Assembly (NCBI RefSeq): GCF_021018745.1
Contig: NZ_CP063845.1
Coordinates: 3,534,001-3,598,000, forward strand
DNA: 64,000 nucleotides
Direction of reading: 5' to 3'
Source of the DNA: Gloeobacter morelensis MG652769
Lineage (GTDB): Bacteria; Cyanobacteriota; Cyanobacteriia; Gloeobacterales; Gloeobacteraceae
The stretch's first letter is position 1, and each line of letters opens with the position of its first letter. Below are positions 55,601 to 58,571 of the stretch, piece after piece. A program made the translations under genes and the position numbers. The notes beneath the pieces were generated by a model. It had not been told where the DNA came from and searched no databases. It was given only the letters and a program-made list of their open reading frames with translations.

Positions 55601-56506
55601 TCAAAGCGGCGGCAGCACCACCAGCGGCTGCAGGAAACCCGCCTCGCAGGCCGCCACACCCAAAAAGCGCTCCGTCTCGGCCTCCCAGATCTGTGCGAAG
55701 GTACCCCCGCAATCGCCCGGTACCTTCTGGCCCATCAACCAGCGCGCCGCAAGCAGTGGATCAAGATGCACCGCGGCGAGGTGAGCCAGGGCGGCGCGCG
55801 GTCCGATGAGCGGCAGGGTGCCCGCCTGGACGTGCGCTTCGAGCGCCGCCAGCGGCAAGCTCGCTTCGAGCGCAAACGGCCCGCTGCGCGTGCGCAGCAG
55901 ATGGGCGAGGGTGGCGCCGGTGCCGAGGGCAGCCCCTAGATCGCGGGCGATCGAGCGGATGTAGGTGCCGGTGGAGCAGCTGATCTCGATTTGCAATTCG
56001 GGGTAGTGGCCTGGATACCAGCCCAGCACCGTGAGTGCCCGGATTTGGACGGTGCGCGGGGCAATTTCGGCGATGGCCACCCCCCGGCGGGCCAGGTCGT
56101 AGAGCCGTTCGCCCTCCTGGTGAATGGCGCTATAGCGCGGCGGTACCTGGGAGATTGTGCCGCGAAAAGCTTGCAGGTGAGCCTGTACGCGAGCGAGATC
56201 GAGATCGGCCGCACCGGCCTCAGCAAGGATATTGCCTTCGAGATCGTCGGTGTCGGTGCTCAGCCCAAAGCGCACCGTCGCCCGGTAGACCTTCCCTTCG
56301 CTCAAAAAGCGCAACAGTCGCGTCGTGCGACCCACCGCCACCGGCAATACCCCGGTGGCTGCCGGATCGAGGGTGCCGCCGTGGCCGATGCGCCGCTCCC
56401 CCAGTACCCGCCGCAATCGGGCGATGCAGTCGTGGGAGGTCAGCCCCGCGGGTTTGTCGAGATTGAGAAATCCTTCAAAACCTGAGCCTGAGGAGCGCTT
56501 TGCCAT
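55601..56506 (-). CDS. truB: tRNA pseudouridine-55 synthase TruB
   Basis: A 301-residue TruB, which isomerises U55 in the T-loop of tRNAs. It shows FLNLDKPAGLTSHDCIARLR, then GHGGTLDPAATGVLPVAVGRTTR with the catalytic Asp of GTLDP, and later YRATVRFGLSTDTDDLEG and STGTYIRSIARDLG. It continues into a PUA-like C-terminus. Start at ATG 56506, with the divergent psbO leader upstream. Confidence 0.95.
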   Translation of the reverse strand: MAKRSSGSGFEGFLNLDKPAGLTSHDCIARLRRVLGERRIGHGGTLDPAATGVLPVAVGRTTRLLRFLSEGKVYRATVRFGLSTDTDDLEGNILAEAGAADLDLARVQAHLQAFRGTISQVPPRYSAIHQEGERLYDLARRGVAIAEIAPRTVQIRALTVLGWYPGHYPELQIEISCSTGTYIRSIARDLGAALGTGATLAHLLRTRSGPFALEASLPLAALEAHVQAGTLPLIGPRAALAHLAAVHLDPLLAARWLMGQKVPGDCGGTFAQIWEAETERFLGVAACEAGFLQPLVVLPPL

Positions 56507-56621: not shown

Positions 56622-56681
56622 TTTGGCCATGTTTCATTGCCCTTTGCGCCCAGGACCGTACCTGCGGGAGGATTTTTCAAG

Positions 56682-57458
56682 ATGAGGCACTCAGCGCTTG
56701 TTTTGGGGTTGGTCGCGATCAGCGCAGTCTCGCTGACCGGTTGCGGCTCCGATCGTGCACCCGGCGCGTCGTCGACCGAGTTCGGCTACGCCATCGAGTG
56801 CAAAAAGCCCACCGGCGACCGCGCGCCGCTCGAGCTGCGGGCCGGTGAAGTCCGCCAGGCGTACGACCTGTGTTTGCAGCCTAAGAAAATTGCTTACGAA
56901 GGCCGCCCTGCCAAGATCATCTGGGGGCAGACCGCTCCTCTGGGACCGGTGATTGCCGAGTTGCACCAGAACGAGCAGGGCAAGCCCGTCATGGAGGTGA
57001 CCGGTGGGCGCAACACTTATCAGATGACGCTGCAGGTGGGCTCTGAGCGCATCGCCTTCAACTTCAGCGCGAGTGGCCTGGACGCCGTCTCGCCCACCCC
57101 CCGCAATGTCGTGGATACCTCAACCGACTTTACCGGCGAGCTGGTGGTACCGTCGCTGCGCGGCCTGGGTTACACCGATTCGCGCGGCCGAGGCACCGAC
57201 TACGGCTACGAAAACTCCCAGTCAACCTATGCCAACAGTGGCGCCGCCTACGACGAAGCAACCAAAGAGTCGCGGGCGCGCGAAACCGGCGAGGGTAAGA
57301 TGGTCCTCAGTATCGAGAGTGTCAACTCCCAGACCGGTGAAATCGCCGGCACCTTCAAGAGCAAGCAGTCTTCGGGTCTGGCGATCTTGCCCGGCGAGGT
57401 GGATGTCGAAGGCCGCTTCATCGGTACCTTCAAGCCTAAAAAAGAGAGCGCCAGCTAA
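56682..57458 (+). CDS. psbO: Photosystem II manganese-stabilising protein PsbO
   Basis: A 258-residue PsbO, the extrinsic subunit that stabilises the Mn4CaO5 cluster on the periplasmic/lumenal side of photosystem II. It is divergent, but the key blocks are clear: the Cys pair (ECKKP and DLCLQPKKIAYE), then NVVDTSTDFTGELVVPSLRG, then SRGRGTDYGYENSQ, and TGEIAGTFKSKQSSG near the end. The start is ATG 56682 with GGGAGG upstream. The signal peptide ends in a perfect lipobox L18-T19-G20-C21, so this PsbO is predicted to be lipid-anchored. It has its own promoter and terminator. Confidence 0.93.
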   Translation: MRHSALVLGLVAISAVSLTGCGSDRAPGASSTEFGYAIECKKPTGDRAPLELRAGEVRQAYDLCLQPKKIAYEGRPAKIIWGQTAPLGPVIAELHQNEQGKPVMEVTGGRNTYQMTLQVGSERIAFNFSASGLDAVSPTPRNVVDTSTDFTGELVVPSLRGLGYTDSRGRGTDYGYENSQSTYANSGAAYDEATKESRARETGEGKMVLSIESVNSQTGEIAGTFKSKQSSGLAILPGEVDVEGRFIGTFKPKKESAS

Positions 57459-57493: not shown

Positions 57494-57516
57494 AGGAGCC
57501 TCTGGGCTCCTTTTTT
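57494..57516 (+). terminator. Rho-independent terminator of psbO
   Basis: GGAGCC TCTG GGCTCC forms a 6-bp stem with a 4-base loop, followed by TTTTTT. It ends the psbO transcript 36 bp after the stop. Confidence 0.93.
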
Positions 57517-57581: not shown

Positions 57582-58571
57582 TTGCCCGCGGTACAGATGA
57601 CGGGTGTGGGCGGGGCTGTCCCTGCACAGGTCCTCACCAACCACCACCTCAGTGCACTGGTCACCACTTCAGACGAGTGGATTGCTTCGCGCACCGGCAT
57701 CCGCTCCCGGCGCATCCTTGCCCCCGGCCAGTCGCTTACCCAGCTTGCCGCCCGCGCCGCCGCTGCCGCCCTCGCCCAGGCGGGCCGCTCTCCGCTCGAT
57801 GTTGACTTGTTGATCCTGGCCACCTCCACCCCTGACGACCTGTTCGGAGGAGCTGCCCATCTACAGCACGAGATCGGGGCGGTGCGCGCCGTCGCCTTCG
57901 ATTTGACCGCCGCCTGTTCGGGTTTTGTCTTTGCCCTGGCTACAGCCAGCCAGTTCGTGCGTACAGGAACCTACCGCACGGTGCTGGTGGTGGGGGCCGA
58001 TGCGCTGTCGCGCTTTACCGACTGGACCGATCGCGCCACCTGCGTATTGTTTGGCGACGGGGCCGGGGCGGTGCTGTTGGAAGCGGGCGAAGCTGAGGGC
58101 ATTTTAGGTTTCGAGCTGCGCACCGATGGCGCCCGGGCGGGTCACCTCAACGTCTACTGCACGGTGGAGGCGGTGCCGCTGGCGGCAGAGATGGCAGCGA
58201 CGCGCGCCCGCTTTGCATCCATTACAATGAATGGCCGGGAGGTCTATCGTTTTGCTGTCGAAGCGGTGCCCGACTTGATCGAAAAGACCCTGGCCGCCTG
58301 TGGGGTGGGTCCAGAACAGGTCAAAGCTTATCTGCTGCACCAGGCCAATCAGCGCATCCTCGACTCTGTAGCCCACCGCCTGCGCGTCGCACCCGAACGG
58401 ATGGCAAGCAATCTGGCCGATTACGGCAACACTTCGAGCGCCTCAGTGCCGCTGATATTGCAGGAGTGGGTGCAGGATGGACGCATCGAGGCGGGAGACC
58501 GGGTGGTGTTGGCGGGATTCGGCGCCGGGTTGAGTTGGGGAGTGTTGCTGGCGCGCTGGGGACGGCTGTAG
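57582..58571 (+). CDS. fabH: 3-oxoacyl-ACP synthase III (FabH)
   Basis: A 329-residue KAS III that condenses acetyl-CoA with malonyl-ACP to start fatty-acid chains. The triad is visible: Cys in DLTAACSGFVFALA, His in LLHQANQRILDS and Asn in ADYGNTSSASVP. The start is likely TTG 57582 because GGAGGA lies five bases before it; ATG 57597 is an alternative. Length is normal. It follows the psbO terminator, so it has its own promoter. Confidence 0.94.
   Translation: MPAVQMTGVGGAVPAQVLTNHHLSALVTTSDEWIASRTGIRSRRILAPGQSLTQLAARAAAAALAQAGRSPLDVDLLILATSTPDDLFGGAAHLQHEIGAVRAVAFDLTAACSGFVFALATASQFVRTGTYRTVLVVGADALSRFTDWTDRATCVLFGDGAGAVLLEAGEAEGILGFELRTDGARAGHLNVYCTVEAVPLAAEMAATRARFASITMNGREVYRFAVEAVPDLIEKTLAACGVGPEQVKAYLLHQANQRILDSVAHRLRVAPERMASNLADYGNTSSASVPLILQEWVQDGRIEAGDRVVLAGFGAGLSWGVLLARWGRL

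Follow-up and report, generated by a model that had tools for sequence, protein, structure and literature searches.

A predicted lipoprotein signal on PsbO is widespread among cyanobacteria and is shared by PsbV in the Gloeobacterales

PsbO, the manganese-stabilising protein of photosystem II (PSII), is probably made as a signal-peptidase-II lipoprotein in most cyanobacteria; this would be its usual form and not an adaptation to life without thylakoids, and the Gloeobacterales appear to tether PsbV in addition. We put the probability of this reading, in which lipidation is a prediction, at about three in four. The gene from which the analysis starts lies in a stretch of 64,000 nucleotides from Gloeobacter morelensis MG652769 (contig NZ_CP063845.1, positions 3,534,001 to 3,598,000), which we call the window and whose first letter is position 1. 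PsbO is described as the one extrinsic subunit that is commonly observed in the PSII of all oxygenic phototrophs (PMC12661325).

Results

The N-terminus of G. morelensis PsbO has the features of a prolipoprotein (Table 1). Its first 21 residues, MRHSALVLGLVAISAVSLTGC, are followed by GSD; they comprise a charged start, a hydrophobic stretch and, just as the first-pass annotation had stated, a closing L-T-G-C, which agrees with the lipobox pattern [LVI][ASTVI][GAS]C quoted in PMC8038367. When this N-terminus was shuffled, 0.7-0.9% of the resulting sequences satisfied the same rule (the motif after a hydrophobic, uncharged stretch); this figure, together with the conservation around the box in the 131 sequences described below, leads us to reject a chance origin of the motif. 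The match to the Pfam MSP family (PF01716; 2.5e-31, 109 bits with a cut-off of 25) runs from residue 35 to residue 247, equivalent to positions 12-239 of a profile of 242. It is the only Pfam match at E up to 0.1, with no homology to the CyanoQ, CyanoP, Psb27 or Ycf48 families, and the lipoprotein matches in an NCBIfam scan were insignificant (E 0.3-0.4). By eye, other PsbO N-termini have Cys residues at the places matching Cys40 and Cys64; a disulfide pair of PsbO is described in PMC12661325, and the bond itself is predicted here. An AlphaFold model of PsbO from three sequences had a mean pLDDT of 41, too low for any conclusion to be drawn from it. Upstream of psbO lies an ORF on the opposite strand (55601-56506, -), which we take to be a tRNA pseudouridine synthase (TruB), and downstream an ORF on the same strand (57582-58571, +), presumably FabH.

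Table 1. psbO and the elements of its N-terminus, in window coordinates
Feature	Position	Strand	Remarks
Likely ribosome-binding site GGGAGGA	56666..56672	+	9 bases 5' of the psbO ATG; read directly
psbO	56682..57458	+	258 aa, manganese-stabilising protein of photosystem II; ATG at 56682; Pfam PF01716
PsbO signal peptide, residues 1-20 (MRHSALVLGLVAISAVSLTG)	56682..56741	+	positive start, hydrophobic stretch, lipobox
Lipobox L18-T19-G20-C21	56733..56744	+	agrees with the pattern; predicted signal peptidase II cut before Cys21
Cys21 (TGC) of PsbO	56742..56744	+	predicted lipidated N-terminal residue
PsbO residues 22-39	56745..56798	+	predicted tether before the folded domain; presumably flexible
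Cys40 of PsbO	56799..56801	+	first Cys matching the conserved disulfide pair; invariant in a three-sequence alignment
Cys64 of PsbO	56871..56873	+	second Cys of the disulfide pair; invariant in a three-sequence alignment
Likely intrinsic terminator of psbO, GGAGCC-TCTG-GGCTCC-TTTTTT	57495..57516	+	read directly, not by scan

The enzymes that would process such a protein are encoded in the same genome (5.10 Mb), in which Lgt (6.9e-77) and LspA (5.4e-36) were each found once. These genes and the conservation of the lipobox throughout the order support, at the level of sequence, the earlier designation of Cys21 as the predicted lipidated residue. A search that detected LolA in E. coli gave no LolA in the G. 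morelensis genome, nor in the Synechococcus elongatus control; a lipidated PsbO would thus be expected to remain in the inner membrane, the site of PSII. Synechocystis is reported to have no recognisable homologues for many proteins of a set that is apparently the Lol transport proteins (PMC5033237).

PsbO is present in all nine Gloeobacterales genomes, giving ten entries, since one genome has two copies. Every one of the ten has a strict lipobox (LTGC, LAGC, LTSC or LVGC). Hence the closest relatives do carry the lipobox, whose absence from them would, by the first-pass annotation's own criterion, have refuted it. Identity to the G. morelensis protein is 99% in Aphanocapsa lilacina HA4352-LM1 and 66% in Gloeobacterales cyanobacterium ES-bin-313. 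The PsbO proteins of the order are also without an N-terminal segment, L-T-Y-D-x-I-x-x-T-G-x-A, that is common to most other PsbO sampled and is not an essential feature of the PF01716 family model; their match to the Pfam profile starts at positions 11-22 in the nine genomes, compared with 1-3 in nearly all others listed. One assembly (G104; 530 contigs, 8% contamination) holds two slightly different psbO copies (L045 and L055), which may represent two strains.

We then looked beyond the order. PF01716 was matched in 376 of the 388 genomes of the class Cyanobacteriia. From genomes picked to cover genera, not at random, 181 PsbO entries representing 179 genomes and 155 of 160 genera were classified by one rule. 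The 188 PsbO loci assigned also included some that were unparsed (L044, with in-frame stops; L053 and L056, both fragments; L186, in which the marker was unmatched and no lipobox was seen by eye) and some that were left out of the counts (L054, identical in protein to L043; L057 and L058, from near-duplicates of genomes already sampled). L044 is a PsbO match with seven in-frame stops in a single-contig genome of 3.0 Mb (G383), possibly a decaying psbO. Outside the Gloeobacterales, 129 of 171 entries have a lipobox (125 strict and 4 loose, against 42 with none), two LNAC sequences from one genus being counted here as having none and as box-bearing in the 131-sequence, A-x-A and tree analyses. 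By genus, the figure is 113 of 149 (109 strict and 4 loose), and the commonest boxes are LTAC (81), ITAC (25) and VTAC (11). To our knowledge, thylakoid-less cyanobacteria come only from the Gloeobacterales; the other families surveyed are thus taken as thylakoid-bearing. Two statements of the first-pass annotation do not withstand these counts: that PsbO normally has no lipobox, which does not hold as a general rule across the sampled cyanobacterial genomes, and that its lipid anchor is linked to missing thylakoids, which finds no support when so many entries outside the thylakoid-less order have the box.

The sequence around the box is conserved as well. Among the 131 box-bearing PsbO from outside the order (LNAC included), Ala occupies position -1 in all 131, Thr position -2 in 118, Leu, Ile or Val position -3 in 129, and Ser position +2 in 106. 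Because this set was selected for the box, the Cys itself is given; Ala at -1 is informative, since Gly, Ser, Asn and Thr were also allowed. The Cys codon is TGT in 77 sequences and TGC in 54, and an acidic residue is found at +2 to +5 in 97. Nine to twelve residues after the Cys, conservation is down to about 1 bit.

A different distribution is seen for PsbV. PsbV-type cytochromes (cytochrome c550) are encoded as a neighbouring pair in all nine Gloeobacterales genomes. The G. morelensis pair lies outside the window (contig 1, 4712981-4713904), and its members (L212 and L220) have the lipoboxes VAGC and LAGC. Across the order, a lipobox occurs in 17 of 18 PsbV ORFs, strict in 16 and LCAC in one; one copy in genome G047 has none. 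The corresponding figure outside the order is 1 of 103 PsbV or PsbV2 ORFs, from 69 genomes of other families, three others among 72 genomes, with only weak matches, having been left out; the sole ORF flagged (G020, VTSC) was judged spurious, as its VTSC precedes a second, ordinary signal peptide. With the PsbO box shared, it is the PsbV box that, among the extrinsic proteins, is a feature nearly confined to the thylakoid-less order, and from these sequences it is plausible that the PsbV lipobox tracks missing thylakoids. The proposal that a lipid anchor keeps the protein from diffusing away in the periplasm, made for PsbO, is not supported for that protein and fits PsbV better. For PsbU, seven Gloeobacterales ORFs were recognisable by eye (7 of 10 loci, with weak matches), and none has a strict lipobox. 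One of these, L203 (G083), has a loose lipobox, LLSC, where its hydrophobic stretch ends, and then a type I-like site.

None of the nine Gloeobacterales genomes gave a match to Psb27; its absence from Gloeobacter is already published (PMC7368068), and CyanoQ has been reported missing from G. violaceus (PMC4180030). With CyanoQ missing and Psb27 not found, tethered PsbO and PsbV could, speculatively, stand in for them in part. These absences are of interest for an alternative in which the lipid serves assembly or quality control, placing PsbO in biogenesis zones, in line with a proposal for other PSII lipoproteins, and matters little once the protein is on PSII. Psb27, CyanoP and Ycf48 do act in PSII assembly (PMC8038367, PMC12661325). 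However, PsbO is a subunit of mature PSII. Moreover, Psb27 and CyanoQ are generally present in the lineages that supply most of the PsbO with a lipobox. We consider it rather unlikely that the lipid serves assembly or quality control in place of retention.

PsbO proteins without the lipobox offer a comparison. The 40 entries concerned (LNAC excluded) fall into families f7, f10, f13, f16, f25 and f28 and into parts of f4, f15, f17 and f32. A-x-A, a signal peptidase I site, occurs within the same 24-residue span in 28 of these 40, compared with 23 of the 131 box-bearing PsbO, and 12 of the 40 lack A-x-A as well. A permissive type I site is present in all 40 but carries no weight as a contrast, because most box-bearing PsbO match too; L-T-A-C itself matches the permissive pattern, which leaves A-x-A as the informative comparison. 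The hydrophobic stretch has another Cys, some seven residues further upstream, in 38 of 40 box-less and 130 of 131 box-bearing PsbO, so what the box-less proteins lack is specifically the lipobox Cys. Within family f17, one genus has LLTAC-AES and another LLTAF-SATPAFA, a pair that suggests the swapping of a lipobox for a type I site.

These observations bear on a second alternative, namely that the Cys is a mere signal peptide residue, with signal peptidase I cutting later and PsbO soluble everywhere. PMC5033237, a paper on work in Synechocystis, states that PsbO, PsbU and PsbV are cut by signal peptidase I and are soluble, unlike CyanoQ. A permissive type I pattern does lie within about 13 residues after the Cys in 86 of the 131 box-bearing PsbO outside the order, and after the Cys in 5 of the 10 Gloeobacterales entries; with the stricter A-x-A the figure is 23 of 131, and cutting by signal peptidase I is thus possible for a minority. 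Some proteins of family f4, which we take to be picocyanobacterium-like, look cuttable either way (VTACSGGAKA-V). However, 45 of the 131 lack even a permissive site after the Cys, and G. morelensis PsbO has none after Cys21. The invariant Ala at -1, where four other residues were allowed, and the use of both Cys codons also argue against this alternative, as do the acidic residues at +2 to +5, which suit signal peptidase I poorly. Finally, box-less proteins have A-x-A more often than box-bearing ones, yet nearly all of them retain the upstream Cys in the hydrophobic stretch. A universally soluble PsbO cut by signal peptidase I therefore seems to us improbable.

To place the box-less proteins, a PsbO tree of 159 rows was used, in which each genus outside the order is represented once for each lipobox state. 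The lipobox state changes at least 10 times on this tree, a number that is approximate because 61 of 156 inner branches are open, many forks being weak; in 300 shuffles the mean was 32 and the lowest value 25. A root with the box gives 10 changes and a root without it 12, such that a lipobox at the root is favoured, not proved. Box-less PsbO sit in about ten places on the tree, and these include relatives of Synechocystis and Thermosynechococcus. The signal peptide of one (L197, f28) is the same as that of a PsbO in the PDB, presumably from Thermosynechococcus, and that of another (L129, f32) resembles the signal peptide of Synechocystis PsbO. Synechocystis and Thermosynechococcus are the sources of the picture of a soluble PsbO, and both are without the lipobox.

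The idea that PsbO acquired its lipid anchor as an adaptation to the absence of thylakoids, to prevent loss by diffusion, would fit the box in all ten Gloeobacterales entries, where PSII faces the periplasm, and a PsbV that is a predicted lipoprotein there and almost nowhere else, but it is very improbable given the box in 129 of 171 entries outside the order, a count that leads us to reject missing thylakoids as the sole cause, and given PsbU, which has no strict lipobox in the order.

Discussion

We favour the view that PsbO is a lipoprotein in most cyanobacteria. PsbO would be made as a prolipoprotein and exported by the Sec system; Lgt would add diacylglycerol to Cys21, and LspA would then cut before this residue. 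The mature protein would sit on the outer leaflet of the inner membrane through an N-terminal tether of roughly 18 residues, from which its barrel could dock on the water-splitting face of PSII. The tether most likely holds PsbO at the membrane while PSII is assembled or repaired and when PsbO is transiently released from it. In the Gloeobacterales it may also retain PsbO in a periplasm that is open to the outer membrane, and PsbV would be tethered in the same way. Several lineages, among them relatives of laboratory and structural models, lack the box and would have a soluble PsbO. For both PsbO and PsbV we infer the lipidation, the retention at the membrane and its benefit.

As a tentative scenario, which we consider possible though not probable, both PsbO and PsbV would have been lipoproteins at the time when PSII was exposed to an open periplasm. 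Once the lumen was closed, the PsbV tether would have been lost for good, and the PsbO tether would have decayed piecemeal, some ten times, into the soluble form of model organisms and plastids. The contrast with PsbV also offers a marker, at the level of sequence, for the transition from periplasm to thylakoid lumen.

Every oxygenic phototroph relies on PsbO to stabilise its oxygen-evolving cluster, and the lipobox finding therefore touches a universal cap protein of PSII. If some three quarters of cyanobacterial genera make PsbO as a lipoprotein, the models that defined PsbO are exceptions. In that case a second look would be needed at salt-wash and reconstitution results, at structures in which no lipid was modelled and at ideas on what keeps PsbO in place during assembly and photodamage. 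PSII lipoproteins as such are already known; it is the lipobox on PsbO across most genera, and on PsbV of the Gloeobacterales, that is apparently new. In open-access full texts, so far as their accessible parts go, we found PsbO or PsbV nowhere stated to be a lipoprotein; earlier notice in the subscription literature is possible.

CyanoP, CyanoQ, Psb27 and Ycf48 are established PSII lipoproteins (PMC8038367, PMC12661325). CyanoQ (PsbQ-like), CyanoP and Psb27 resemble PsbO in being exported, in lying on the water-splitting side of PSII and in having a lipobox, which in CyanoQ is missing from some lineages (PMC4180030), as it is in PsbO here. They differ in belonging to other families, and CyanoP and Psb27 are chiefly associated with assembly. 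When Synechocystis CyanoQ has no lipid, its accumulation falls to 17% (Cys-to-Ser) or below detection (PMC5033237), and this need for the lipid may serve, by analogy, as a precedent for tethered PSII cap proteins. In the same organism PsbO is cut after A-F-A (PMC5033237). The PsbO of T. elongatus is non-lipidated, and washing with salt or alkali removes it more readily than it removes the lipoproteins (PMC4180030); by analogy, we predict that box-bearing PsbO should resist such washes as the T. elongatus lipoproteins do.

Ycf48 offers a parallel of another kind: like PsbO, it was not counted among the lipoproteins, which changed in 2021 with the demonstration of its lipid, and its box is absent from some lineages, such as Thermosynechococcus (PMC8038367). 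However, Ycf48 is an assembly factor with a mostly atypical box such as C-V-S-C, whereas PsbO boxes are nearly all canonical. PsbO chains in the PDB that we assign to Synechocystis and Thermosynechococcus belong to the same family as the proteins described here, and their signal peptides align with them through the hydrophobic stretch, but they have no lipobox Cys. The PBS-PSII structure 8WQL is from Arthrospira platensis (PMC12152189). Its PsbO (chain 8wql_OD) carries VLTAC-SES, a canonical lipobox. Arthrospira platensis is a thylakoid-bearing organism.
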